A DNA stretch of 19,016 nt from Pseudomonadota bacterium. GTDB lineage: Bacteria; Myxococcota; Myxococcia; Myxococcales; Myxococcaceae. Positions 1,317 through 19,016 of this stretch are shown piece after piece. The stretch spans positions 1-19,016 of the forward strand of contig JAFADT010001007.1 of assembly GCA_023424585.1 (NCBI GenBank). Direction: 5' to 3'. Positions within the stretch are counted from its first letter, which is position 1. Every line of letters starts with the position of its first letter. The notes below the pieces were generated by a model. It was not told where the DNA came from, did not search any database, and saw only the letters and a program-made list of their open reading frames with translations. The position numbers were made by a program, and so were the translations under genes.

Positions 1317-2590
1317 GGGGCGAAGAGCTCCAGGAGGGTGGCGGAGAGCGTCCAGGCGTACTGCGCCAGCTCGTCCTCCGTGACGTACTCATCCGCCCCA
1401 TGCGCCCGGCGCAGGTCCCCGGGGCCGAAGACCACGGAGGGAATCCCGAAGGCCTCGAAGAGCCGTGCGTCACACGGGCTCGGAAAGTGGTCCACGGTCA
1501 GCGGCGTCCCCCCCGGGACGCCATTGCGCACCAACGCGTCACATAGCGGGAGGTCCGACAGGGAGCTGCCCGCGAAGCGGATCCCATACGGCTCCACCGT
1601 GGGCAGCCGGTCGCACCGGCCCCGCAAGCGCTCGGCCATCAACCGCCGCAGCTCGTCTATCACCTGCTCCAGCGACAGGCTGACCGGCAGCGCCGCCGTC
1701 ACCCGGAGCTCCGCCGAGCTCGCGGGAACCGCCGCGTCCGAGCCGCCCGACATTTCCCCATACATGATGTACCGGGAGCCGGGATTGGCGCACCGCTCCC
1801 CCACCCAGGCATCCAGCTCCTCCAGGCACAGGCTCACCACCGCCAGGAGCTGGTTCGCGTTGTCGTAGGGCCTGGCGAAGACCATGTGGACGGGGCGCCC
1901 CTCGCACACGACCTTGAACTGATGGAACCCCCGCGAGCCATGGCAGACCACGCCGCCGGTGGGCTCGCCGATGAGCGCGATGGCGTCCCGGCGCCTTGGC
2001 GTGGACATCAGCGACCAGAGCGTTCCATTGCCTCCAATCTCCTCGTCCACGACGAGCTGCACCTCGATGCTGCCGCGCTTGCCCAGCCGGCCCATGACCT
2101 GCTTCAGCGCGAACAGGAAGCACGCCACCCCCCCCAGCATGTCCGACGCGCCACGGCCATAGATGCGCCCGTCCCGCAGCGCCCCGGAGCGCCACAGCCC
2201 GGCGTGGGCCCACTGGCCGGGTCCCGTCACGAACTCCACGTCCAGGTGCCCGTTGAGGATGAGCGCCGGCCCCCCCGGCCCCAGCTCCGCCCTGCCGACG
2301 AGGTTGAACCGCTCGCCCTTGCCGTAGTCGCTGAAGCGCCCGCCAAAGGCGGTGACGTCCACGTAGTGCGGGGACTCGCGCAGCCGCGCATGGTCGATCC
2401 GCTCCCACGTCACCTGGAGCCCCAGGGCTTCCATCTCCCGCGCGCAGATGCGCTGCGCCTCGAGGATCCCCTCCGAGTCGTAGATGGGGTGCGCCTGGAT
2501 GAGCGCTTGCAGCAGCGCGACCAGCTCCCCGTGCCTGGGAGCCGGGCTTTCGAGCCGCGCGAATCCATCCTCGTGTCGTGCCTGGCTCAT
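1313..2590 (-). CDS. M20-family metallopeptidase/deacylase (ArgE/DapE-like)
   Basis: This is a zinc-dependent amidohydrolase of the M20 family (ArgE, DapE, carboxypeptidase G2 type), 425 residues. From the chosen start, the motifs are NGHLDVEF with His115 and Asp117, YGRGASDMLGG with bridging Asp150, DEEIGGNG with catalytic Glu183 and ligand Glu184, GEPT near 208-211, and a C-terminal AHGADEYV carrying the last His. All metal and catalytic positions look intact. An open frame extends to an ATG at 2626, but the ATG at 2590 forms an exact ATGA overlap with the upstream stop and is preferred. Relatives remove N-acyl groups from amino acids or hydrolyse dipeptides. Lying between an isomerase and an aminotransferase, it may deprotect an N-acylated amino intermediate; that role is inference. 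Confidence 0.87.
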   Translation of the reverse strand: MSQARHEDGFARLESPAPRHGELVALLQALIQAHPIYDSEGILEAQRICAREMEALGLQVTWERIDHARLRESPHYVDVTAFGGRFSDYGKGERFNLVGRAELGPGGPALILNGHLDVEFVTGPGQWAHAGLWRSGALRDGRIYGRGASDMLGGVACFLFALKQVMGRLGKRGSIEVQLVVDEEIGGNGTLWSLMSTPRRRDAIALIGEPTGGVVCHGSRGFHQFKVVCEGRPVHMVFARPYDNANQLLAVVSLCLEELDAWVGERCANPGSRYIMYGEMSGGSDAAVPASSAELRVTAALPVSLSLEQVIDELRRLMAERLRGRCDRLPTVEPYGIRFAGSSLSDLPLCDALVRNGVPGGTPLTVDHFPSPCDARLFEAFGIPSVVFGPGDLRRAHGADEYVTEDELAQYAWTLSATLLELFAP

Positions 2591-3504
2591 CGGTGCACTG
2601 GGGAGTCTTCCATGAGGGTCCGACACCAGTCCGCGACCTGGAACGCCATCTTCCGGAACCGGTAATCCGTCTCACGGATCTCCAGCGTGGTCGCCTTGGC
2701 CTTGCTCCGGCAGATGTGCGCGAAGGCCTCGCGATACACGGACTCCGGGACGTCCGCGTCCCAGGGCGGCATGCCCTCCACGCACCGCGTTCCCCGCCGG
2801 CGGGACGCCACGCCACGGAAGGCGCTGAAGTGGTAGTGGACGATGTGGTCCCCCAGCGCCAGGAAGTCCATGTAGCCCGCGGGCTGCACCCGGGGGTACT
2901 CGTCCAGCTCGTCCAGCTCGTTCGCCAGGAGCTTGCTGGCGACAAAGACAGAATAGCTGTAGTGGCAGAAGTCCCAGGTGATGCCCACGTTCCCGCCGTA
3001 CAGCCCCTCGAAGTCATGGGGGAACACCAGGACGGGATCCAGCTCCTCGGCGTCGTTTCCGTGGATGGGCATGTTCTCCAGCCCCACCCAGAAGCGCGCC
3101 CCCCGGGTCCGTTGCTGGAGCTCCTGCGCGAACTCCCGGTACTGCTCCCACTTCCGGGCCGGGTCCAGCCGCCGCCACTCGTCCGTCGGATAGATGAGGT
3201 TGGAGTGCAGCACGAGCCCATCCATGCCGCACGCATCCACCAGCTCCAGGCTCTCCCAGACGCGCTGCCGGACCAGCGGGTCCTCCAGGTAGTTGCAGTC
3301 ATTGACCGGGAAGTGGAAGGTGTAGCTCGCGGGACGGTGCTCGCGGGCGATGCGCAGCGTGTTCGCCTGGACCTGGCGCCACACCTCGGGATCCACGATG
3401 TCCTGGCGGTCGAAGAGTGACGCCTCCACGCCGAACCCCTGCTCCAGGGTCGCGGGAGAGAACTGCTCCATGCGGCTGGCCAGGAACGGGATGGAGAGGA
3501 TCAT
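2587..3504 (-). CDS. Xylose-isomerase-like TIM-barrel protein (sugar isomerase/epimerase)
   Basis: This 305-residue protein of the AP-endonuclease-2/xylose-isomerase-like superfamily probably isomerises or epimerises a sugar, polyol or related ketone. Candidate divalent-metal ligands sit at the ends of beta strands as expected: Glu143 in WVGLENMP, Asp178 and His181 in TWDFCHY, His223/His225 in IVHYHF and Glu275 in TLEIRE, with His100 in LVLHSN nearby. The set is complete, so activity is likely. The start ATG at 3504 overlaps the stop of the aminotransferase gene (ATGA at 3504-3501); the in-frame ATG at 3519 is less likely. It belongs to the sugar/amino half of the lux-containing operon. Superfamily members also include DNA repair endonucleases and inosose isomerases, so the reaction is unassigned. 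Confidence 0.8.
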   Translation of the reverse strand: MILSIPFLASRMEQFSPATLEQGFGVEASLFDRQDIVDPEVWRQVQANTLRIAREHRPASYTFHFPVNDCNYLEDPLVRQRVWESLELVDACGMDGLVLHSNLIYPTDEWRRLDPARKWEQYREFAQELQQRTRGARFWVGLENMPIHGNDAEELDPVLVFPHDFEGLYGGNVGITWDFCHYSYSVFVASKLLANELDELDEYPRVQPAGYMDFLALGDHIVHYHFSAFRGVASRRRGTRCVEGMPPWDADVPESVYREAFAHICRSKAKATTLEIRETDYRFRKMAFQVADWCRTLMEDSPVHR

Positions 3505-4706
3505 CGTGCGGCCCCACACAGCTCGCGGAGGGCCGAGATGACCTTCGCCTGCTCCGCGTCCGTCAGACCGTAATACATGGGCAGGCTCACCAGCCCCGGC
3601 GCGACCGCGTCCACGACGGGAAACCCAGCGCCACGCACCAGGGGGAGCGACTCAAAGGCCGGCTGCCAGTGCAGGGGCGTGTAGTGCACCTGGAGGCGGA
3701 TGCCCCGGGCCTCGAAGAACTGGAACACGGCGGCCTTGGACAGGCCCAGGCGCCGCAGGTCCAGCTCCACCGGAAACAGATGCAGCGCGGACGTGCGGCG
3801 GGGGTCCCTGGGGTGCAGGGTGACGGGTCCCAGTCCGGCGAGATCCTGGCGGTAGGTGCGCGCCAGCGCCTGCCGGCGGGCCAGACTCTCATCCAGCCGC
3901 TTGAGCTGGACCAGGCCCACGGCGGCGTGCAGCTCCGACATGCGCAGGTTGAGCCCAGGCTCCGCGACCTCGTAGTACCAGGGGTTCTGGACGCCCCGCT
4001 CGTCGAACGCCTGCTCCTTCCTGGCGAAGCCGGAGCGCTGCATGTTGTGGCTACAGAAGAGCCGCAGCCGCTGGAGCAGCGCCTCGTCGTTGGAGAGGAT
4101 GGCGCCCCCCTCTCCCGTCCCCAGGCTCTTCGTGGGGTGGAAGCTGAAGACGCCCGCCCTCGCGGAAGGGTGGTTGCCCGTCAGGGCGCCGCCCGGGAAG
4201 TTCCCCAGCAGCGCGTGACAACTGTCCTCGACGAGCAGCGCCCCATGGGACGCCGCCACCCCGGCGAGCGCGTCCATGTCCGCGGGGACCCCGGCGAAGT
4301 GCACCGGGTTGATGATGACGGCCGCGTAGCCGCTGGCCCGGGTCCGCAGCACGTGCTCCAGGGCGCGCGGATCCATGTTCAGGGTGTCCGGCTCCACGTC
4401 CGTGAACGCGACATCGAAGCCCAGCAGGCTGGCGCTGGCCGGCCCCGCCAGGAAGTTGAGCGCCGAGGTCACGTAGAGGACCTTGCCCTCCTTCGGCTTG
4501 AGCAGGTGGAAGAGGGCATACAGCGCCACCGTGCCGTTCGCGACGCAGACGACGCCCTTCGCGCCCATCCGCTCGCGCAGCCCCTCCTCGAACCGCTGCA
4601 CACGGGGGCCCGTCGTCCACCAGCCCGACTGGATGACCTCCGTGAGCGCGTCCGTCTCCTCGGAGGTCCAGAAGGGCTTCGAGTACGGGATGAAGTCCTG
4701 GCTCAA
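3501..4706 (-). CDS. DegT/DnrJ/EryC1-family aminotransferase (PseC/ArnB-like), TTG start
   Basis: This PLP-dependent sugar aminotransferase of the DegT family has 401 residues. The N-terminus FIPYSKPFWTSEETDAL followed by GWWTTGPRVQRFEE is the classic opening of 4-keto-sugar aminotransferases (PseC, ArnB, WecE types). Further motifs are VANGTVALYAL, VEDSCHALLG (pyridine-N Asp161) and SFHPTKSLGTGEGGAIL with Schiff-base Lys193. The frame opens upstream to 4739, but homology begins just after a TTG at 4706-4704 that overlaps the TGA of the epimerase gene (TTGA), matching the coupling seen elsewhere; I therefore place the start there. It follows an SDR epimerase/dehydratase-like gene, the usual pairing for making a 4-amino-4-deoxy sugar. 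Substrate assignment is inference. Confidence 0.87.
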   Translation of the reverse strand: MSQDFIPYSKPFWTSEETDALTEVIQSGWWTTGPRVQRFEEGLRERMGAKGVVCVANGTVALYALFHLLKPKEGKVLYVTSALNFLAGPASASLLGFDVAFTDVEPDTLNMDPRALEHVLRTRASGYAAVIINPVHFAGVPADMDALAGVAASHGALLVEDSCHALLGNFPGGALTGNHPSARAGVFSFHPTKSLGTGEGGAILSNDEALLQRLRLFCSHNMQRSGFARKEQAFDERGVQNPWYYEVAEPGLNLRMSELHAAVGLVQLKRLDESLARRQALARTYRQDLAGLGPVTLHPRDPRRTSALHLFPVELDLRRLGLSKAAVFQFFEARGIRLQVHYTPLHWQPAFESLPLVRGAGFPVVDAVAPGLVSLPMYYGLTDAEQAKVISALRELCGAAR

Positions 4707-5653
4707 GCGCCGTCTCCCTGCTTGCCGTCGCGGACCCACTCCAGCGTCCGCCGGATGCCTTCCGTCAGGGAGGTGCTCGCCTCGAAGGGGATCTGCCGCG
4801 CGGCCTTGGCCACGTCCGGGATGCGGCGGAAGACCTCGAAGCTCAGGTTCCGTCCGACCTGCGTCGCCCCGAAGGGGACGACCTCCAGGGGACTCTGGCT
4901 GTTGGCGATCTCCCGGATCCGCTGCGCCAGCGTGGAGATGGTCACCGTCTCCTTGGAGCCGATGTTGAAGATTTCAAACGGGCGCTGCTGGGGCGCGAAG
5001 GCCGCGGCGACGATGCCCTTCGCCGCGTCGTCGATGAAGGTGAACGTCCGTGTCTGGGCGCCCGTCCCATGCACCTGCAGCAGCGAGTTGGAGATCGCGC
5101 CCCGGCAGAAGCGGACCATGACGAAGTCCTCGCGCTGCCCGGGCCCGTACACGTTGAACAGACGCACCACCGTGGCCACGGAGCTGGTGCGCTCGGCGAA
5201 CTGCTGCGACAGCCGCTCCCCCTCCACCTTGCTCTTCCCATAGGCGGACTTCGGCTGTGGCACGTCCACCTCGCGGAACTGCTCCGCCTGCCCGTCGCCG
5301 TAGATTTCAGAGGAGGACGAGAAGAGCAGCCGCTTGATGCCGTGCGCCTCCATGGCCGCGAGCACGTTGCGCGTGCCCTGCACGTTGGTCTCATAGACCA
5401 GCGCTTCGTCCTTCTGACACGCCTCGACGCCCAGCATCGCCGCCAGGTGGAAGACCCGGTCGTGGCCCTTCATGGCCCGCGCCAGCGCCTCCGCGTCACC
5501 GATGGAGCCCTCCACGAAGTCCACCGCCAGGCCCTGGGGCGGTTTGAGATCGAAGACGGTGACCTGGCAGTCACCCCGCTGGAGCAGGAGCTTGAGGACG
5601 TTGCTTCCGACGAAGCCGGAGCCCCCCGTCACAAAGATCTTATTCACAGCCAT
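4703..5653 (-). CDS. NAD-dependent epimerase/dehydratase (extended SDR)
   Basis: This extended short-chain dehydrogenase acts on nucleotide sugars. The Rossmann motif VTGGSGFVG lies at residues 8-16, FHLAAMLGVEACQ near 68-80, the Ser stretch SSSSEIYGD at 112-120, and the catalytic YGKSK with Tyr138 and Lys142. Later RLFNVYGPGQ and FTFIDDAAKGI are typical of UDP/dTDP-sugar 4-epimerases, 4,6-dehydratases and decarboxylases. Length is about 316 residues, normal for the family. A GGGGG ribosome-binding site at 5659-5655 is only 1 nt from the ATG at 5653 but 7 nt from a GTG at 5647, so translation may really begin two codons later, giving MNKIFVTGG. The gene is 152 bp downstream of luxA, and its stop overlaps the next start. 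It probably provides the keto-sugar for the adjacent aminotransferase (inference). Confidence 0.88.
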   Translation of the reverse strand: MAVNKIFVTGGSGFVGSNVLKLLLQRGDCQVTVFDLKPPQGLAVDFVEGSIGDAEALARAMKGHDRVFHLAAMLGVEACQKDEALVYETNVQGTRNVLAAMEAHGIKRLLFSSSSEIYGDGQAEQFREVDVPQPKSAYGKSKVEGERLSQQFAERTSSVATVVRLFNVYGPGQREDFVMVRFCRGAISNSLLQVHGTGAQTRTFTFIDDAAKGIVAAAFAPQQRPFEIFNIGSKETVTISTLAQRIREIANSQSPLEVVPFGATQVGRNLSFEVFRRIPDVAKAARQIPFEASTSLTEGIRRTLEWVRDGKQGDGA

Positions 5654-5805
5654 TCCCCCAACATTGACAAGGCACACGGGCGCCGGGGCCGCGAACCCCC
5701 ATGGCTTCGCACCCGATGCGCTCTCAAGAATGAAATGGATGCAAGCCTTCACAGGAGCCACACGGCAGAGCCGGTGGCCCCTGCTTCCTCGGAACGACCA
5801 CCCGC
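5654..5805. other. Gap between luxA-like gene and epimerase gene
   Basis: A 152-bp spacer without a supported gene. Frames continuous with the epimerase read through it but show no family similarity, and the ribosome-binding site sits at its epimerase end. I see no stem followed by a T-tract on the minus strand, so there is no obvious terminator, and transcription could continue from luxA into the sugar genes. Confidence 0.5.
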
Positions 5806-6885
5806 TCAGGTCTTCTTCTTCGCCGGCTTGATGTGCGGCCGGACTTCCTCGTTGAAGAGCTTCATTGACTGGAGCACGTCCTCGCGCTTGCCCGCGGCCT
5901 CGAAGGCACACACGATGCGGCTCACGCCCGTGGCATCGACGATCTGCTGGATCGTCTTGATGCACTCCTCGGGGGTGCCGATGGGGTTGAGGCGCAGCAG
6001 GTTGCTGACCACGCGCGGAATCGGCGTGTCCCCCTTCAGCGCGGCCTGGCGCCAGTACTGGAGGTGCCAGTCGTACGCCTCCACCTTGTGCTCGCGCACG
6101 ATGTTCACGATGTTCTGGGCGTGCTCCACTTCCTGCTCGAACCAGAGCAGATAGCGGCGGCACTTCTCACGGATCTCATCGCCGTTGCGGCCGACCCCCA
6201 CCACCATGGAGAGGGTGTGCTCCACCTTGCTCGGGTCATGGCCGTGCTGGCGCGAGGTCTCGTTGTAGAGCTCGATGTTGGCGACCTTCGCCTCGTGCTC
6301 GATGTCGTGCTGCATGATCATCGACAGGTTGTTCTTGGCAACCCATTCAATGGTCGACGGAGACATCGACGCGACGACGACTGGCACCGGGTCGGAGATC
6401 GGCTTGGGCTGGACGGGCACCGCCGGGAACTTGAGGAACTCGCTGTTGCCAGCGACCGTCCCCTTCGTCCAGGCGTCTCGCATGATCTCATACCAGTCCT
6501 GGAAGATCTTCCGCGTGTTCCGGATGTCGACCCCGAACACCGCGAAGTCCTTGTCGAAGAAGCCCCGGCCAATGCCCAGGATGAAGCGGCCGTTGCTCAT
6601 GTGGTCCAGGAGGGCCACCTGCTCCGCCAGACGGACCGGGTGCTCGATGGGCAGCACGTTGATGGCCGTGCCGATCTTGAGCTTGCGGGTCGCCCCCAGG
6701 ACGAAGGAAGCCATCACCATCGGTGAGCCACAGAGGCCGTAGTTGGTGAAGTGATGCTCCAGGACCCAGCCGCTCTCGAACCCCGTCTCTTCCGCGATCT
6801 GCCCGTAGAAGAGCGCGTTCTCCAGGACCTCGCGCTCCGTGAAGTCAGGCGGCTTCGCGGTGTTGAGATACATTCCCCACTTCAT
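5806..6885 (-). CDS. Bacterial luciferase alpha-subunit-like flavin monooxygenase (LuxA-like)
   Basis: This LLM-class flavin monooxygenase has 359 residues, against about 355 for Vibrio LuxA. Compared with remembered Vibrio harveyi LuxA it aligns end to end: MKWG start, LEHHFTNYGL with His44/His45, HPVRLAEQVALLDHMSNGRF, GRGFFDKDFAVFGVD, STIEW, IELYNE, the QYWRQAALKG segment of the alpha-specific active-site loop, LNPIGTPEECI and VCAFEAAG. Arg107 and the Ser/Thr of the FMN-phosphate site are kept; Cys106 is Gly, Glu175 is Met and Trp194 is His. Luciferase oxidises long-chain aldehyde with FMNH2 and O2 to acid and light. An ATG two codons earlier (6891) has its AGGGGG ribosome-binding site only 2 nt away; the ATG at 6885 has 8 nt spacing and the LuxA-like start, so I prefer it. 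No luxB is present. Light emission is unproven; another flavin-dependent oxidation is possible. Confidence 0.9.
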   Translation of the reverse strand: MKWGMYLNTAKPPDFTEREVLENALFYGQIAEETGFESGWVLEHHFTNYGLCGSPMVMASFVLGATRKLKIGTAINVLPIEHPVRLAEQVALLDHMSNGRFILGIGRGFFDKDFAVFGVDIRNTRKIFQDWYEIMRDAWTKGTVAGNSEFLKFPAVPVQPKPISDPVPVVVASMSPSTIEWVAKNNLSMIMQHDIEHEAKVANIELYNETSRQHGHDPSKVEHTLSMVVGVGRNGDEIREKCRRYLLWFEQEVEHAQNIVNIVREHKVEAYDWHLQYWRQAALKGDTPIPRVVSNLLRLNPIGTPEECIKTIQQIVDATGVSRIVCAFEAAGKREDVLQSMKLFNEEVRPHIKPAKKKT

Positions 6886-6891
6886 GTTCAT

Positions 6892-7056
6892 TACCCCCTA
6901 TGCGGGGCCCCGAAGGACCCTCGCCAAGCATTGAGAGACCAGACGCGTGAATCGACGCGCCCCCACTGATACGTCAATAGGCCCCCGATGCCTCGTGTTC
7001 AGGTTTCCGGTTCCCCTTGTGATCCGGCCTTGGCCGACAGTGTCAACACAACCCTC
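6892..7056. other. Gap between luxD and luxA-like gene
   Basis: A 165-bp spacer in an otherwise overlapping gene chain. On the minus strand it contains a perfect TTGACA hexamer at 7046-7041, but there is no convincing -10 element 16-18 nt downstream (ATCACA is the nearest). A short GC stem, CGGCC-TT-GGCCG, lies at 7025-7036 without a T-tract. It may carry a separate promoter or processing site for luxA; the evidence is weak. Confidence 0.3.
6894..6899 (-). promoter_or_regulatory. Ribosome-binding site of the luxA-like gene
   Basis: AGGGGG on the minus strand lies 2 nt before the ATG at 6891 and 8 nt before the ATG at 6885. The spacing favours the second ATG, which also matches the LuxA N-terminus. 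Confidence 0.6.
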
Positions 7057-8010
7057 TCAACCGGCCTTCGCCGCCAGCTGCGCGGCCCCGATCGCCTGGG
7101 CATCCGCGGCCTGATAGAGCCTGCGCTCCCGGATGGAGTGCTCGGAGATGACATTGAACTGTGGCTCGAGCTCCAGCTCCGTCATCTCCGGCTTGCCTTC
7201 GGTCACCATGTCGGCGGCCCGGGCGACCTCCTTGAACAGGTAGCGCGCGACCTGCGGGTTGTTGCCCAGGTCATGGCCGCTGCCCGTCAGGTTGTAGAGC
7301 CGGCGCAGCCCGTTGCCCGACGCGAGGGCCCCGCGCACGTCCTCCTCGCGGACCCACTCATCGTTGCTGCCGATGAACGCGATGATGGGCGTGGCCGACG
7401 AGGAGACCTCACGCACCGTCGTGGCGTGGGCGAACCAGTCGTGGGCCACACAGTCGGCGTGGAAGGTAGCCGCCCGGACGTTGTGACGCTCCTCGAAGGT
7501 GACGAACTCCGGCAGCGCCTCCGGGGCATAGGTCGAGTAGTCCACGCCGAAGACCTGCTTGAGCGTGTACTGGAGGTTGGTGACCCCCACCGCGGTGACC
7601 AGGAAGCGCACGTCCGAGGACCTGGCCACGAGGCGATAGGCGATCCGCGCCGAGAGGCTGGTGGCGACGACGCCCACGCCCGACAGGCCACGCTCCTCGC
7701 GCATCCAGTCGATGACCTGCTGCATGCAGGCCAGCCCCTTGCTCATGGTGAAGTCCTCCATGCCGCCGGAGCTGAGCCCCACATGGTCCAGCGGGTCGTA
7801 GCGGAAGACCTCGAACCCGCTGTAGGCCAGGTACATGGCCAGCGGACCAAACGCCGACATCTTCCGACCAAAGCCCGGCGCAATCAGGATGGGGATGGAC
7901 CGCATGGCCCTGTCGATATTGACAGTCCGCCAGACCATCACCCGTCGATCCGGAGGGCCGATCTCGAACTGCTGGAAGGAAATCTCCGGAGCAGGAGCTG
8001 TCGCGCTCAT
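7057..8010 (-). CDS. luxD: LuxD acyl transferase (myristoyl-ACP thioesterase) of the fatty acid reductase complex
   Basis: This alpha/beta hydrolase of 317 residues matches Vibrio LuxD along its length. Diagnostic blocks are FRYDPLDHVGLSSG (69-82), EDFTMSKG, the nucleophile elbow ATSLSARIAY with Ser118, FLVTAVGVTNL, PIIAFIGSNDEWV with Asp217, GSGHDLG with His246, and a C-terminal IRERRLY. In luminous bacteria LuxD takes the acyl group from acyl-ACP or acyl-CoA and releases fatty acid for LuxE/LuxC. The DHVGLSSG and TAVGVxNL blocks are specific to LuxD rather than to generic hydrolases. The ATG at 8010 overlaps the luxE stop (ATGA at 8010-8007) and is preferred to the ATG at 8040. There is a short Ala/Pro-rich N-terminal extension compared with LuxD from memory. 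Confidence 0.93.
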   Translation of the reverse strand: MSATAPAPEISFQQFEIGPPDRRVMVWRTVNIDRAMRSIPILIAPGFGRKMSAFGPLAMYLAYSGFEVFRYDPLDHVGLSSGGMEDFTMSKGLACMQQVIDWMREERGLSGVGVVATSLSARIAYRLVARSSDVRFLVTAVGVTNLQYTLKQVFGVDYSTYAPEALPEFVTFEERHNVRAATFHADCVAHDWFAHATTVREVSSSATPIIAFIGSNDEWVREEDVRGALASGNGLRRLYNLTGSGHDLGNNPQVARYLFKEVARAADMVTEGKPEMTELELEPQFNVISEHSIRERRLYQAADAQAIGAAQLAAKAG

Positions 8011-9143
8011 CTCTTCTGTGCCTCCATTGCCAAGGCGCACCCCTTCTGGGCGCGCGTGACCAGTCTGCGTTGGATATCGACGCGAATGCCTTCACGACCG
8101 CATCCGCAAACCCCCGCCCGGGTGCTCCCCACGTCCTCTGTCACCAGGAAGCAGGGATAGCTGTTGGACGAAGCGTCCAGGTATGACATCAGACCTGGCG
8201 TCCCGGGAGGAAGGACCTCCAAAGTATGGGGATCCCGGGCAGCGACCAGGACCCAGGGCGGAACGTGCTTCTCCCGGGCCGAGCACTCCATGAAGACAGT
8301 GTTGAGCTCGACCTGGTTGAAGGCATCCCGCACCTGCGAGCCGTCCTCCAGCCGGAAGGTGTCAACGCAATACGTCTCGAACTCGTCGCGGGGCAGCATC
8401 CGCCCCGACTGTCGCTTCCAGCCGCCCGCGGTGAGGATGGTGAGCCGGGACCCCAGGTCCATGCGGCGGTCGCGCGCCCGGACCCGTTGACAGAGGTCGT
8501 GGACGAGGAAGGGCGGCCCCACGACGCCGATGAAGCCGGGGCGCGCGGCGAAGTAGTCCAGGACCGGGAGCACCTCGTCGGGGTGCAGGACCCCGTCCTT
8601 CACCACCGAGTACGTGGGGAAGAGCAGCTCGATGAGGCTCATCACGTACTGGAACCAGACGTTGCCCGCATCCTCGCGGCCCGGCCCCAGGTTGATGACC
8701 GTGAAGTCCTCTTCGTGCCAGTCCTGGATGAGCCCAAGGCTGGTGCGGACCGAACCGATGAGCCGCTCGATGGTGACGCGATCCCGGCCAATCCGACTCT
8801 GGGGCCCCCCGCTGGTGCCGCTGCTCAGATACCACTGCTCGATGTCATCGCGGGGAACGCTGCGGACCTCGCTGTACTTGAACGCCCGCGTGGACAGCAG
8901 CGGGATCTTCTCCAGGGGTCCGTCGACGCGGGCATGGCTCCGCTCGAAGTACATCCGGTACTGGGGGCAGGAATCCAGGTGCCTGACCAGGGCCTCCCGC
9001 ACGAAGCGCTGGGTCAGCTGCTGCTGCTCGACCAGGGGCAGGTCGTACCAGGGCTCCTCGGAGTGGATGAGCAGGTCCAGGTCGGAGCTCGCGTTGACGA
9101 CGCGGTAGTCCAGCGGCGGCTCCTGAAGCGTGAGGGCCCTCAC
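8007..9143 (-). CDS. luxE: LuxE acyl-protein synthetase
   Basis: LuxE activates fatty acid with ATP, forms an acyl-enzyme and passes the acyl group to LuxC. The protein has 378 residues. It carries SSGTSG at 107-112 (adenylate-forming signature), INLGPGREDAGNVWFQYVM, VRDAFNQVELNT, EKHVPPWV, GLMSYLDASSNSYPCF and the C-terminal TRAQKGCALAM, where Cys369 corresponds to the acyl-accepting Cys of Vibrio LuxE. These blocks match remembered LuxE nearly word for word. A small insertion with CGCGREG near residues 347-353 adds two Cys not expected in Vibrio LuxE. The GTG start at 9143 overlaps the luxC stop (GTGA), so LuxC and LuxE, which form a complex, are translationally coupled. Confidence 0.94.
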   Translation of the reverse strand: MRALTLQEPPLDYRVVNASSDLDLLIHSEEPWYDLPLVEQQQLTQRFVREALVRHLDSCPQYRMYFERSHARVDGPLEKIPLLSTRAFKYSEVRSVPRDDIEQWYLSSGTSGGPQSRIGRDRVTIERLIGSVRTSLGLIQDWHEEDFTVINLGPGREDAGNVWFQYVMSLIELLFPTYSVVKDGVLHPDEVLPVLDYFAARPGFIGVVGPPFLVHDLCQRVRARDRRMDLGSRLTILTAGGWKRQSGRMLPRDEFETYCVDTFRLEDGSQVRDAFNQVELNTVFMECSAREKHVPPWVLVAARDPHTLEVLPPGTPGLMSYLDASSNSYPCFLVTEDVGSTRAGVCGCGREGIRVDIQRRLVTRAQKGCALAMEAQKR

Positions 9144-10579
9144 GGCACGAACTCCACGAACCGGTCGTTCTCAAGGAAGCTTGTTTGATCAATTCGGATC
9201 GTCATGGTCTTCGTGTAGAGGGCGCTGGGCTGCTCCGTCGAAGACAGGCGGACCAGGTGCTGGAGGGGGAAGATGCCGTCGTGCGCCGTGCCAGCCCGGA
9301 AGATGTTGTTCATGCCCAGCTCCACGAAGCGGGACACGCCCTTGCTGGCCATCCGGTCCCGCAGGCCCTCCACGGCGTGGAAGGGCATCACGGCGACGGT
9401 CTGGACATCACCGTCCACGTACTGCGCGACCTCATCGACAGACTTGATGGGGTGAATGAAGAGCGTCCGCCCCAGCGGGTGGAGCCCCACGAACTCAGGA
9501 GAGCAGACCGCGAACGCCCAGCTGCCCTCGGGGTCGTGGTAGAAAGGCATCCCCATGAACAGCGCTTCGCTGACCGCGAGCGTGCGCGCGGCCTTCTCGT
9601 CGAAGTCGTGGAAGCCCTTGGGCAGGACCTGCTTGTAGACATTCATCGCCTCCACGAGGTGGGGGATGAACTCGCCGAGGTCCACGTCCGTGAAGACCTG
9701 TTGGACCGAGAAGCAGGCGCGCTGATCATAATAGGAGACATCGTGCGCCAGACAGCGGGCCGCGGCCTTGAGGTCGCTCCCCTGGGTGACCACGGCCAGG
9801 CTCCGTTTGGGGCCGAACTTGACGACGTCCGTCTTCTCCGAGGCGTAGCGCGCCGCCCACCGCATGGCATCCCGGCCTCCCCATGCGCAGATGACATCCG
9901 CGGCCCGCGCGATCTGATCCTCCAGCGCCCCCTCCTGCCCACCGGCCCAGTTGATCACCGACATCGCCTGGGTCACCGGGTGGTTCGCCTCGATGTCCTG
10001 GAAGCTCTGGGCCAGGAAGAGCGGCGTGAAGGGGTCCCCCGAGGAGGACTTGACGACGACGCTGTTCTTCGTGATGAGCGCCCGGACGATGGAGCCGACC
10101 CCCGAGAGGGGGACGTTGCCGGCCAGCGTGTGGAGCGACAGCCCCTTGGGATAGGCGCGGACCTCCGCCTCCTCGCGAAGGACCCACTTGTCCAGGATGT
10201 GTCGGCTGCCCAGCTCCGTCGTCACGATGTCGTACGTGACGGCGTGGGACGACAGCAGCATGGAGATCCAGTTCGCCTCCAGCTCCGCCATCTTCTCGGA
10301 GAAGCCGAGGTGGCTCACCAGCGCCCGGATGTACATCTTGCGCCGGGTATACTCCTTGGACTTCCAGCTCTGTCCCGCGTTATAGAGGAAGCCGACAATC
10401 TCATGCAGTGACAGCTTCTCCAGGGCCTTGGTGTCCTGCTCCACGATCTGCTTCGTCATGGCGGCATCAAGGATGGGAAACCTGACGACCGAGCCATTAT
10501 CAAGCGTCAGGAGACGATGAGAGCCCTCGCTCGGGCTGTATTTCTCCCCCCTGATGATGAATGGCACATCCCTGATCAT
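9140..10579 (-). CDS. luxC: LuxC long-chain acyl reductase
   Basis: LuxC reduces the acyl group handed over by LuxE to a long-chain aldehyde with NADPH. The protein is 479 residues, the usual length. It contains FLYNAGQSWKSKEYTRR (64-80), MAELEANWISMLLSS, HTLAGNVPLSGV, CAWGGRDAMRWA (231-242), KFGPKRS, YDQRACFS with Cys289 at the acyl-accepting position (Cys286 in Vibrio harveyi by memory), GMNNIFRAGTAHD and a C-terminal QTSFLENDRFVEFVP that mirrors LuxC. It opens the operon: the ATG at 10579 is preceded by GAGGGGG at 6 nt spacing, and a candidate promoter and a terminator-like hairpin lie further upstream. LuxC-like reductases also occur in O-antigen clusters, but the co-occurrence with LuxE, LuxD and LuxA argues for the lux type. 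Confidence 0.95.
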   Translation of the reverse strand: MIRDVPFIIRGEKYSPSEGSHRLLTLDNGSVVRFPILDAAMTKQIVEQDTKALEKLSLHEIVGFLYNAGQSWKSKEYTRRKMYIRALVSHLGFSEKMAELEANWISMLLSSHAVTYDIVTTELGSRHILDKWVLREEAEVRAYPKGLSLHTLAGNVPLSGVGSIVRALITKNSVVVKSSSGDPFTPLFLAQSFQDIEANHPVTQAMSVINWAGGQEGALEDQIARAADVICAWGGRDAMRWAARYASEKTDVVKFGPKRSLAVVTQGSDLKAAARCLAHDVSYYDQRACFSVQQVFTDVDLGEFIPHLVEAMNVYKQVLPKGFHDFDEKAARTLAVSEALFMGMPFYHDPEGSWAFAVCSPEFVGLHPLGRTLFIHPIKSVDEVAQYVDGDVQTVAVMPFHAVEGLRDRMASKGVSRFVELGMNNIFRAGTAHDGIFPLQHLVRLSSTEQPSALYTKTMTIRIDQTSFLENDRFVEFVP

Positions 10580-10585
10580 TTAGAG

Positions 10586-10592
10586 CCCCCTC
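10586..10592 (-). promoter_or_regulatory. Ribosome-binding site of luxC
   Basis: GAGGGGG on the minus strand with 6 nt to the ATG at 10579. It is the strongest Shine-Dalgarno in the block and fixes the luxC start, consistent with luxC being the first gene. Confidence 0.7.
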
Positions 10593-10687
10593 GAACGCTT
10601 CTCAGCGAGACCAGCAGCCGCGTCCCAATGCGAGGACTGCCGCCCCATGGCGGCTCACACTGCCCCGCCCGCGTGCATGAGTTGTTG

Positions 10688-10718
10688 ATTACCTAGCAGA
10701 GACCCAAACACACTTCAA
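10688..10718 (-). promoter_or_regulatory. Candidate sigma-70-type promoter upstream of luxC
   Basis: On the minus strand TTGAAG (10718-10713) is followed by TAGGTAAT (10695-10688), in a locally AT-richer stretch about 110-140 nt upstream of luxC and just downstream of the terminator-like hairpin. The -10 match is modest (GGTAAT at 19 nt spacing, or TAGGTA at 17). No lux-box-like 20-bp palindrome was seen. This is a pattern guess only. Confidence 0.25.
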
Positions 10719-10727
10719 GCCGTCATC

Positions 10728-10751
10728 AAAGAAAAACGGGTTCTCCCGTTT
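10728..10751 (-). terminator. Rho-independent terminator-like hairpin between the beta-propeller gene and luxC
   Basis: Read on the minus strand, AAACGGG (10751-10745), loop AGAA and CCCGTTT (10740-10734) form a perfect 7-bp stem, followed directly by TTCTTT so that the 3' side is TTTTTCTTT. It should end transcripts coming from the beta-propeller gene and insulate luxC. Alternatively, if a promoter lies above it, it could act as an attenuator in a luxC leader. Confidence 0.6.
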
Positions 10752-11022
10752 CATCCCGCGCTCCTCCCAATCAATCCCTCTCGCATGAACACACCGTATT
10801 GGGACACCTCACGCGAGCCATGAATCCTGATGAGGATTGGCCTTTCGCGACTCGAACGCCGTGTGAAATCCAGCACTTGAGGGGCAGACGAAACTCTTGA
10901 TATTGGCTGGTCGCGCCCCGTCATCCTGGGTATGTAGCCAAGGGCTCACACGTTCGAGCCCCCAGACGTGAGAGGTTGTCTTTGTGACCTCCACGGTCTT
11001 GTCCCAAGGCGCGCTGGGCCCG

Positions 11023-11997
11023 CTAATCCGCCACGGCAAGGCCATGCGGGTCGCGGCCGACCTGAACAACGCTCAGTTTTCTACCCGTTGAGGATTCCAT
11101 GACCCACACGGAGTGGTCTCCATTGCAGGACACGAAGAGCCGCTGCCCATCCGCGCTCAGGGTGGCGGCGAAGGGGCTCTTCCCCACGCGGAGTGACTCC
11201 AGCCGCTGTCGAGCGTGCCGGTCCACCCGTGAGAGCGCGTCATCGTCGAGGTTGGTGACATAGAGGCAGCGCCCATCCGGGCTGGGGGCGATGCTGGTGG
11301 GATGTCTTCCCACGAGGATGCAGCCCACCTCCCGGCCCGAGCCCGGGTCGTGGATGGAGACGACGTGGTCTCGGATGGACGTCACATACAGGAGGCCGTC
11401 GCAATACAACACGCCATATGGCTGTCCCCTGACGGGGAAGGTTCTCTGTACCCTCAGCGAATCCAGCTCCACCGCGGAGACTGTGTCGTCCGCGTTGTTG
11501 GTGATGAAGAGCAGGTTCCGTTCGGGCGCCAGAGTCAGGTTCCGGGGTCCGCGCCCGACCGCCACTTCGTGGACAGGCCGACCGCTGAGCGCCTCCAGCA
11601 CGCAGAGCCTGGAGCCCTGTCTGCTCAGGACCCACAACCAGCGCCCCTCGGGACTGACGGCCAGGCCTCGCGGATCCGGGCCGACGGCGAAGGTGTCCAC
11701 GACCCGAAGCTCACGCGTCGAGACAACCGAGACCGAACCATCGCCGCTGTTGCTGACGTAGAGCAGGCTCTTGTCACTGTTCAGCGCGACGGAGCGGGGC
11801 TCATGCCCCACGGGGATCTTCGCCAGGATCATCCCGGAGTCACCGTCCAGGCACCAGACACGGTCCTCCAGACAGCTCGCCACGAAGAGGGGGGTCGAGC
11901 TCCGGCTCTCGGCAACCATCAACAGACCTCGCTTGGATGACCGGTCCGCCCGTTGCGCTGGACAGGCGATGAGCAATGAGGCGCCGATGACACACAT
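11023..11997 (-). CDS. YVTN-type beta-propeller protein, possible lipoprotein
   Basis: The protein is up to 324 residues with seven consecutive repeats of about 40 residues, each with the pattern hydrophobic-YVxN/S followed by a VxVGxxPxxxA-type turn: VASC, LLYVSNS, LWVLSR, LLFITNN, LLYVTSI, CLYVTNL and LFVSCN. It should fold as a seven-bladed propeller, probably a binding or scaffold protein rather than an enzyme. Two starts are possible. The ATG at 11997 gives a hydrophobic N-terminus with a lipobox-like LIAC but no basic residues and no ribosome-binding site. The ATG at 11919 has GAGG 7 nt upstream and gives a leaderless protein of 298 residues. It is separated from luxC by 443 bp and a terminator-like stem, so it is probably not part of the lux operon. 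Function unknown. Confidence 0.8.
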   Translation of the reverse strand: MCVIGASLLIACPAQRADRSSKRGLLMVAESRSSTPLFVASCLEDRVWCLDGDSGMILAKIPVGHEPRSVALNSDKSLLYVSNSGDGSVSVVSTRELRVVDTFAVGPDPRGLAVSPEGRWLWVLSRQGSRLCVLEALSGRPVHEVAVGRGPRNLTLAPERNLLFITNNADDTVSAVELDSLRVQRTFPVRGQPYGVLYCDGLLYVTSIRDHVVSIHDPGSGREVGCILVGRHPTSIAPSPDGRCLYVTNLDDDALSRVDRHARQRLESLRVGKSPFAATLSADGQRLFVSCNGDHSVWVMESSTGRKLSVVQVGRDPHGLAVAD

Positions 11998-12734
11998 CGG
12001 GCCCGTGCCAGCTCAAAATCTGCTCGCCTCATCCCGGGCGCGTCAAGGACGCACCAGAGCATGTCACTGGCGTCTCATGCCTTCGGACGCGTCATGAGAA
12101 GAACATGGCGGCTCAGGGCAGCACCGGGCCCTGGGTCTCATCCCGCTGCCCCCGGCACCGCGAACCACGTGCCAGGGCGGAGGCACACACCTTACAAATC
12201 CTCGCAGTTTCCCCCCGGATGCGCCGACGAAGGCCAGCGCGCACACCGCCAGCAGCGTCATGACCTTGAGCTTCTCCATCAGCGCGGCCATGGCGGCGCT
12301 GTCCCAGGAGCGACACCGGACCGCGCAATCCCAATGGCCGCCGCGATGCTGGCCACGCTGACGCTCCCAACGACGAGCGTCACCAGCAGGAGCACGAACG
12401 CGAGCAGCACCGTCCAGGCGTGGGGACGGTGCGAAAGCGGGAGGGTTGGCGACGGAAGACGGCTCGGAGGGGAAAGCCATGGCGGACGAGGGTGGCGCCC
12501 CGGTTCGCGCAAGAGGAGAAAGACCTCGCCGCCGTTGCCCTGCGCACCTGCTCGTCGCCACGTCGGGCAATGAGACAAAGCCATATGACCCGTCCGCCAC
12601 GGCGCGCTCCGGGCTGAGCTTCGATTGCGCCCACATGCTCAGCCCGGTGCTGCTCGACAGCGGCCACGCGGCGCTTCGAGCAGCAGGCGCGGCGCTCGGT
12701 GCCGCCATCCCCTGGCAGGTCCTGGTTCGCGCCC
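11998..12734. other. Region with no confident intact gene
   Basis: Several overlapping open frames on both strands are low-complexity products of high GC. A weak promoter-like pair on the minus strand, TTGACG at 12046-12041 and GCAGAT at 12024-12019, lies above the beta-propeller gene. The middle of the region contains two hydrophobic coding-like segments in different minus-strand frames, listed separately as a possible remnant. Confidence 0.5.
12205..12480 (-). pseudogene. Possible frameshifted remnant of a small membrane protein
   Basis: Two hydrophobic segments sit in different minus-strand frames. One reads HAWTVLLAFVLLLVTLVV (about 12420-12370) followed by SVASIAAAIGI, and stops at 12281-12279. 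The other starts at an ATG overlapping that stop (TGATG) and reads MEKLKVMTLLAVCALAFVGA, like a signal peptide or membrane helix. Codons within each hydrophobic stretch end mostly in G or C, as in real genes here, but the bias decays on both sides (for example AAA CTG CGA GGA TTT GTA after the second). This fits an old small membrane-protein gene broken by frameshifts. Two tiny overlapping genes are the alternative. There is no clear ribosome-binding site. Confidence 0.25.
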
Positions 12735-13428: not shown

Positions 13429-13833
13429 CTACCTCTTCTGGGGGATGGCGCATCGAGGGGGCCCGGAAGAAGCTCCCTCCAGCCGGTGCGCACGGCGCCG
13501 GTACTCGCCGGGAGGCACTCCCATCTCCCGCCGGAACGCCCGGTTGAAGGCGAACTCCGATTCGTAGCCCACGCGGCCCGCGATGGCCGCGAGCCCGCCC
13601 TGCCCCTCCCGCAGCGCGTGCGCGGCCTCCTGCATCCGAAGCCGCGTCAGGTACTCATGAGGCGCCACACCCACCTCGCTCGCGAAGCACCGCGCGAGCA
13701 TCGCCCTCGAAGTCCCCGCGCGCCGCGCCAGCTGGCTCACGGTCCAGCTCCGTCCTGGCTCCGCGTGCATCCAGCCCATGGCGCTGGCGAGCGTCCGGTC
13801 GCCGAGCGCCCCCAACTCCGGGGGCGAGGTCAT
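13429..13833 (-). pseudogene. AraC-family regulator, 5'-truncated (DNA-binding domain only)
   Basis: The 134-residue frame is an almost complete AraC/XylS C-terminal domain. The first helix-turn-helix is around WTVSQLARRAGTSRAMLARCF (residues 30-50), then GVAPHEYLTRLRMQEAAHAL, and the second HTH AIAGRVGYESEFAFNRAFRREMGVPPGEYRR (about 83-113). AraC proteins with this linker (SAMGWMHAEPGRSWTV) normally carry a cupin sensor domain of about 150-200 residues in front; it is absent. An in-frame stop lies at 13845-13843 just above the ATG, and there is no ribosome-binding site. The truncation point coincides with that of the divergent membrane-protein remnant. It may still be expressed as a bare DNA-binding domain, but a broken gene is more likely. 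Confidence 0.65.
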
Positions 13834-18616: not shown

Positions 18617-19016
18617 TCAGTCCGCCAGCAGCTGGCGCAGGCTGATGTCCAGCTCGCTGCGCACGAGGCGCAGCAGGCTGTCCAGCTCGCCGGGGGTGAG
18701 CCCCAGCCGCGTCGTCAGCTCCTCGCGGGTGAGGGCCAGGAGCCGTTCTCGGGCGCGGGCGACCCAACGCGCCACGGTGGAGCGCGGCGCCTGCGTGGTG
18801 GCCGCCATCGCGTCCATGGACAGGCCATGCACATGGTGCAGCCGCAGCAGGTTGCGCTCCCGCGTGTCCAACCTGCCCAGCGCGGCGCGGAAGGCCCCGC
18901 GGAAGTCCTCCTGGTGCCGCTCGCGGATGAAGGCCAGCTCGGGGTCCGCGCCCAGCCGCTCCGCCAGCCCCGGCAGCCGCTCGCCCACCGGCTGCTCGCG
19001 CGGCGCGGCGCGCTGC
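18617..19016 (-). CDS. Sigma-70-family RNA polymerase sigma factor, C-terminal part (runs off right edge)
   Basis: The open frame continues to the window end, so only the last 130 or so residues are visible. They contain AALGRLDTRERNLLRLHHVHGL and MDAMAATTQAPRSTVARWV, a sigma region 4 helix-turn-helix that would contact the -35 element, followed by ARERLLALTREELTTRLGL and a C-terminal extension ending in ISLRQLLAD. The tail after region 4 resembles a group of myxobacterial sigma factors that end in a Ser/Leu-rich extension (from memory). The true start lies outside the window; the GTG at 18988 is merely the first possible internal start. It sits upstream of the metalloprotease in the same orientation, 162 bp away, and might regulate it, but there is no direct evidence. 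Confidence 0.8.
   Translation of the reverse strand, partial: QRAAPREQPVGERLPGLAERLGADPELAFIRERHQEDFRGAFRAALGRLDTRERNLLRLHHVHGLSMDAMAATTQAPRSTVARWVARARERLLALTREELTTRLGLTPGELDSLLRLVRSELDISLRQLLAD

Follow-up and report, generated by a model that had tools for sequence, protein, structure and literature searches.

Can bacterial luciferase work from a locus that holds only one of its two subunit genes, and how does such a locus relate to the amino-sugar genes that follow it? This question is raised by a stretch of 19,016 nucleotides (contig JAFADT010001007.1 of assembly GCA_023424585.1; "the window" hereafter means this whole stretch) from a bacterium filed under Pseudomonadota and placed by GTDB in the Myxococcaceae, in which an earlier note, made from the sequence alone, had recognized a luxC-luxE-luxD-luxA set at positions 5806-10579 of a myxobacterium-like chromosome. 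Textbook bacterial luciferase is made of two subunits that arose by gene duplication. The reading that we prefer, at a probability of roughly 0.6, is that the window carries a luxB-less luxC-luxE-luxD-luxA set whose predicted light would come from a LuxA homodimer, and that this set is likely co-transcribed with five predicted amino-sugar genes. The earlier note was right on the four genes and on the myxobacterial affinity, the nearest named relatives being myxobacterial, but it had overlooked that luxB is absent and that sugar genes are linked to the set.

All four lux proteins matched their Pfam families at near full length (LuxC 308 bits, LuxE 261, Acyl_transf_2 for LuxD 229, and Bac_luciferase 210), and near end-to-end matches were also found to the NCBIfam lux models (LuxC 550 bits, LuxE 353, LuxD 236, and luciferase alpha 368). 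The catalytic residues that had been named beforehand for LuxC, LuxE, and LuxD (Table 1) are all present and are identical in seven of seven aligned rows, namely the window, two myxobacteria, one luxB-less gammaproteobacterium, and three marine CDABE loci. LuxD comprises 317 amino acids (aa) when counted from the ATG, which has a GGAGG 10 nucleotides on its 5′ side, or 327 aa from an upstream GTG, with the triad then numbered 128/227/256. Its placement relies on full-length matches at 34-56% identity and on rarity, not on a tree; the protein had been called rare outside lux operons, and two strong matches were recovered among 377 Myxococcota genomes (the genome searches in this study sampled 377, 112, or 200 genomes out of larger groups).

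LuxC and LuxE could be placed by trees, built with a quick method after removal of 12 duplicate loci. Ten lux rows cluster together in both the LuxC tree (31 rows, support 94) and the LuxE tree (27 rows, support 99), and one long generic row attaches outside the ten in the LuxC tree (support 95). The window proteins lie within these lux clades, far from the generic LuxC and LuxE relatives of myxobacteria, so that the lux assignment withstood the comparison with generic families. The scores agree with the trees: generic myxobacterial relatives reach at most 101 bits for LuxC and 105 for LuxE, against at least 733 and 566 for lux-type rows. The exception is a generic LuxC row (L054), a long branch in the LuxC tree, which scored 469 bits only because it had itself been taken up among the seeds of that search. 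A generic origin of the LuxC/LuxE pair was rejected on this score gap and tree placement. As a separate observation, LuxE residues 346-348 form a CxC motif (Cys346, Cys348) common to four luxB-less loci (the window, L001, L002, and L006) and not present in the three marine LuxE proteins aligned.

The luciferase is predicted to be a one-subunit enzyme. The closest solved structure to the window LuxA is PDB 8cbb, an alkanal monooxygenase alpha chain (581 bits), whose sequence is identical across 363 residues to the LuxA of the Enhygromyxa salina SWB005 lux locus, and to which the window protein is 67% identical. Relative to chain 1brl_A, which we take to be Vibrio harveyi LuxA, His44, His45, Asp113, and Trp250 are kept, as read off the alignment (positions 46, 47, 115, and 250 of the window protein), and Gly stands at the position of Cys106. 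Among window open reading frames (ORFs) of at least 150 aa, a LuxA-profile search gave luxA as the sole match of at least 250 residues, with no luxB. Further luciferase-family proteins besides LuxA number two in the genome of Plesiocystis pacifica, one in that of E. salina, and none in that of Gammaproteobacteria bacterium 45_16_T64; the three found in the two myxobacteria score at most 19 bits on the LuxB model, which gives 549 bits to a LuxB from its own seed set, and a luxB elsewhere in the genomes of these relatives was thereby ruled out. From the window and the relatives' genomes, we infer that luxB is likewise lacking in this host.

The LuxA tree, built more carefully from 55 rows (9 of 64 left out as near-duplicates, one short row, or the most divergent rows), places the window in an eight-row clade (support 100/100), the other members of which are P. 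pacifica, E. salina, and five catalogue proteins. The marine LuxA and LuxB proteins form one group (86/92) outside this clade and adjoining it, in keeping with the earlier naming of the gene as a LuxA homologue. Forcing marine LuxA together with the window clade to the exclusion of LuxB was rejected (approximately unbiased test, p-AU 0.005). Both results are only suggestive, because they share any long-branch pull of LuxB, the branch length of which is very long (3.3). Two further relatives of LuxA (P0032 and P0041), 42-43% identical and carrying annotations from Pendulispora albinea and Nocardia uniformis, are possible additional single-subunit luciferase-like enzymes. The top plasmid match to the window LuxA (42%) is a gene annotated luxA in a plasmid record of an uncultured bacterium (AJ297913.2, 38419-39474), which may be an inserted laboratory marker.

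Yudenko and colleagues (Proteins, 2024) are said to have described the E. salina LuxA as a functional homodimeric luciferase that reportedly gives much less light than LuxAB and favours medium-chain aldehydes, and to have proposed a pre-duplication origin for it. Because 8cbb is this E. salina LuxA, reportedly a published luciferase, we do not claim the luxB-less core lux set as new; the window lux set is a further member of the Enhygromyxa type. No published account of these lux loci, or of the nine-gene run of lux and amino-sugar genes, was found, in literature searches that were not aimed at the link between lux and sugar genes and that left subscription journals mostly outside.

To find comparable loci, GTDB genome contigs were scanned with a LuxD alignment via two peptide patterns, a non-exhaustive search that returned nine loci. 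Six are marine and of the CDABE type (four Aliivibrio, Shewanella hanedai, and Candidatus Enterovibrio escacola; order C-D-A-B-E), and three, from P. pacifica SIR-1, E. salina SWB005, and 45_16_T64, have the order C-E-D-A with no second luciferase match. The earlier note was thus correct that C-E-D-A differs from CDABE, but the order is not a unique rearrangement; it is that of the known luxB-less set. Its remark that it knew of no described luminous relative of this kind of organism is not supported: the same set occurs in P. pacifica and E. salina, and the structure of the E. salina LuxA is solved. As in these two loci, the four lux genes of the window form one run that holds only one luxA and no luxB, its LuxA belongs to the same clade, and the same five genes follow; the window differs from them in belonging to another lineage, with sugar and LuxC/E/D proteins only 34-54% identical. 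All nine genes are collinear in three of three loci (the ninth gene of E. salina being cut at a contig end), with strand and order kept at 34-67% identity; to the two relatives, LuxC is 50-52% identical, LuxE 53-54%, LuxD 42-43%, and LuxA 66-67%. LuxD and the sugar-isomerase-type barrel of the run are each strong in the same two of the 377 Myxococcota genomes, with the best five candidates per genome scored for the latter.

The canonical luxCDABE loci share homologous LuxC, LuxD, LuxA, and LuxE with the same catalytic residues, whereas the window lacks luxB, has another order, and holds a LuxA that branches outside marine LuxA and LuxB. The window lux proteins are 38-45% identical to those of the six marine loci, and its LuxA is 39-41% identical to the six marine LuxA proteins and to that of 45_16_T64, against 27-31% to the six LuxB. 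The 45_16_T64 locus (L006, 3013-13182) has the same four-gene order and includes the one luciferase-family gene of its genome; it differs in that genes for GTP cyclohydrolase II (with a GGDEF domain) and RibD precede lux and a LuxR-type regulator follows. A LuxD-family search of 200 genomes of its phylum gave three matches (572 bits, 45_16_T64 at 203 bits, and one weak partial match). This locus, from a distant lineage, is another candidate for bioluminescence with a luciferase of one subunit.

Table 1. Features of the window, with positions counted from its first nucleotide
Feature	Position	Strand	Remarks
luxC	9140-10579	minus	479 aa; fatty acid (acyl-protein) reductase; Cys289
luxE	8007-9143	minus	378 aa; acyl-protein synthetase; Cys369; 4-bp overlap with luxC
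luxD	7057-8010	minus	acyl transferase/thioesterase; triad Ser118-Asp217-His246; 4-bp overlap with luxE
luxA	5806-6891	minus	361 aa; luciferase alpha-type subunit; keeps the mobile-loop segment, which LuxB lacks
NAD-dependent nucleotide-sugar epimerase/dehydratase	4703-5653	minus	top NCBIfam match LegB, under cut-off; 152 bp past luxA
DegT/DnrJ/EryC1/StrS sugar aminotransferase 1	3501-4739	minus	top NCBIfam match PseC, under cut-off
sugar-isomerase-type TIM barrel	2587-3519	minus	weak PF01261 match under the Pfam cut-off
M20 family deacylase (ArgE/DapE-like)	1313-2626	minus	
second DegT aminotransferase	21-1316	minus	divergent
possible intrinsic terminator	10733-10752	minus	between beta-propeller gene and luxC; 8-bp stem and T-rich tail
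YncE/lactonase-like beta-propeller gene	11023-11997	minus	
AraC-type helix-turn-helix protein gene	13429-13833	minus	flank
sigma-70 region 4 protein gene	18617-18988	minus	flank

Five more minus-strand genes follow luxA and reach base 21; since the second DegT gene extends almost to the window edge, the gene run may go on past it. By families and fold only, they make up a nucleotide-amino-sugar module, in that an SDR epimerase, DegT aminotransferases, and a sugar isomerase-type enzyme occur together; the DegT and epimerase proteins score under the cut-offs of the NCBIfam models that they match. The TIM barrel has the predicted fold of ketose 3-epimerases and xylose isomerase, and its candidate metal residues (Glu148, Asp183, His186, and Glu280) are invariant in 32 sequences. 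Because the structure matches from Foldseek and VIA include numerous ketose epimerases and xylose isomerases with comparable scores, we claim no substrate for it. Long plus-strand ORFs overlying the sugar genes, at 18-1868, 1886-2665, 2578-3420, and 3417-5243 were rejected as genes, being without a Pfam match and having the wrong codon-position GC. Kin of the module without lux were found on plasmid pJCM12687 of Mycobacterium branderi, which carries a nucleotide-sugar dehydrogenase, a TIM barrel, two DegT proteins, an epimerase, and a GNAT enzyme (44% identity to the window for the first DegT, 28% for the TIM barrel, 27% for the epimerase, and the second DegT in two pieces only). It differs in gene order and in having a PIG-L deacetylase in place of M20, and no lux genes are among the 17 features shown. 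The module thus has kin apart from lux, so that two systems are joined in the window. Further relatives of the TIM barrel itself occur in Streptomyces and Nonomuraea, in a search that scored the 7998 candidates sharing most words.

Given the established biochemistry of LuxCDE and LuxAB, a mechanism could be proposed, with all its steps drawn from homology. LuxD would release fatty acid from acyl-acyl carrier protein, LuxE would activate it with ATP and transfer it to LuxC, and LuxC would use NADPH to reduce it to aldehyde. Working with no beta subunit, LuxA would then convert aldehyde, reduced flavin mononucleotide (FMNH2), and O2 into acid, FMN, and blue-green light; a flavin reductase encoded elsewhere would supply the FMNH2. 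Under the same promoter, the epimerase, the two DegT proteins, the ketose-isomerase-type TIM barrel, and the M20 deacylase would start from a nucleotide sugar and yield an amino-sugar product that has been deacylated.

Several points weigh against a luminous, co-transcribed set. All four lux proteins miss the curated NCBIfam lux cut-offs (LuxC 750, LuxE 550, LuxD 420, and luciferase alpha 600) and are therefore divergent members of their families. The reported dimness and medium-chain preference of the E. salina LuxA fit a side activity as readily as a main one, and no documentation of light from any of these organisms was found in the literature searched. Neither a flavin reductase nor a known lux regulator occurs among the window ORFs scanned; one flavin-reductase-family gene is present in each relative genome (P. 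pacifica and E. salina), yet also in 13 of 14 control genomes. The gaps of 165 bp between luxD and luxA and of 152 bp between luxA and the epimerase gene are wide enough to hold internal promoters. Furthermore, the window TIM barrel falls outside the group of the P. pacifica and E. salina TIM barrels, and its tree, the bootstrap of which had not fully settled (3 of 46 rows removed: two shorter than 270 aa and P0062, the window's own), disagrees with that of LuxA. Holding the window and Nannocystaceae TIM clades together against the rest, including Streptomyces, was rejected (p-AU 0.004). The lux and sugar halves therefore have partly separate histories: either the module was joined to lux on two occasions, or its spread to actinobacteria came afterwards, or a replacement took place in the window copy. 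This incongruence weakens a simple one-origin story.

The first alternative is that the nine genes form one biosynthetic cluster, in which LuxD, LuxE, and LuxC supply fatty aldehyde or acyl groups, LuxA oxidizes, the product is a lipid-bearing amino-sugar metabolite, and light is incidental. Such a cluster agrees with the gene order kept in three divergent loci, though relatives of the sugar module occur elsewhere too, with the reportedly dim light of the E. salina LuxA, and with the P. pacifica run, which continues into a GNAT enzyme, an APH-type kinase, and a nucleotide-sugar dehydrogenase, as expected for a natural-product locus. Nevertheless, LuxC/E/D/A close a cycle from fatty acid to aldehyde to acid that has no obvious net output but light; LuxC and LuxE group with marine lux and not with generic myxobacterial pairs, and 45_16_T64 keeps C-E-D-A beside riboflavin genes, with no match to the window sugar genes in its 20.8-kb locus. 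We consider this alternative unlikely, though it is the main rival and deserves to be kept in view. Also in the P. pacifica genome, a GlmS-like gene (L016, 3550-5487; glutamine amidotransferase and SIS domains) adjoins luxC in divergent orientation, and its product could be a source of amino-sugar precursor.

A second alternative, in which a complete lux set stands upstream of an independent sugar cluster by chance and the two are united by transfer of a shared island, seems improbable. The TIM barrel tree, the M. branderi module with no lux genes nearby, and the Streptomyces and Nonomuraea relatives would all suit it, as would the lower overall GC across the lux genes (0.60-0.66 in 1-kb windows, against 0.66-0.74 flanking), although their third-codon-position GC stays near 0.9 (0.88-0.92, as in the other coding genes of this contig). 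However, nine genes keep their order and strand at 34-67% identity in three loci, and a chance neighbour would have been shuffled, an argument that a single old transfer of the whole block could still evade. Finally, that the locus is not lux, and combines LuxC/LuxE-type acyl reductases of the generic kind with a hydrolase and a flavin monooxygenase of ordinary type, is very improbable indeed: Myxococcota commonly carry proteins of the LuxC and LuxE families (in 105 and 62 of the 112 genomes sampled) and the NCBIfam cut-offs are missed, but tree placement, the large score gap, the presence of LuxD, the catalytic residues, and the close relation to the 8cbb protein all speak against it.

Around the locus, the beta-propeller gene is the immediate upstream neighbour of luxC and shares its strand, and 45_16_T64 also has a WD40 propeller gene near lux; this is probably a coincidence. 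The possible terminator is a weak candidate, as the scan gave two sites of this kind, fewer than the mean of 3.0 in shuffles. A sigma-70 promoter for luxC was rejected, the sole site in 5000-12100 lying inside luxA (one site against a mean of 0.6 in shuffles). No RNA family reached gathering score in the window or in loci L001 and L002. The flanks also encode an AraC-type protein and a sigma-70 region 4 protein (Table 1). Next to the locus stands a GH15 glycosidase gene, for which Myxococcota genomes hold full-length relatives of up to 64% identity, and matches at 1e-30 in 108 of 377 of them, partial and distant ones counted and the best three candidates per genome scored. This gene sets the window apart from P. 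pacifica, the genome of which gave no match at 1e-30 (3 of 13 candidates scored). The host is likely a myxobacterium distinct from P. pacifica and E. salina.

Beyond the luxB-less luminous set that we prefer, our results raise the further, rather doubtful possibility that the nine-gene lux-aminosugar operon is one functional unit, in which the aldehyde or acyl supply of LuxC, LuxE, and LuxD could be shared by a luciferase of one subunit and a sugar metabolite modified with lipid. A luciferase that needs one gene and comes with its own source of aldehyde would also make a compact reporter. With a third, diverged locus of the myxobacterial type, holding a single LuxA outside marine LuxA and LuxB, the question of a pre-duplication luciferase becomes testable, and the conserved joining of lux and amino-sugar genes suggests a use of lux chemistry beyond plain light. 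If the one-unit reading were true, the locus would stand for the state of bacterial luciferase before the duplication and reveal the role that lux chemistry had before, or besides, the marine light organ.

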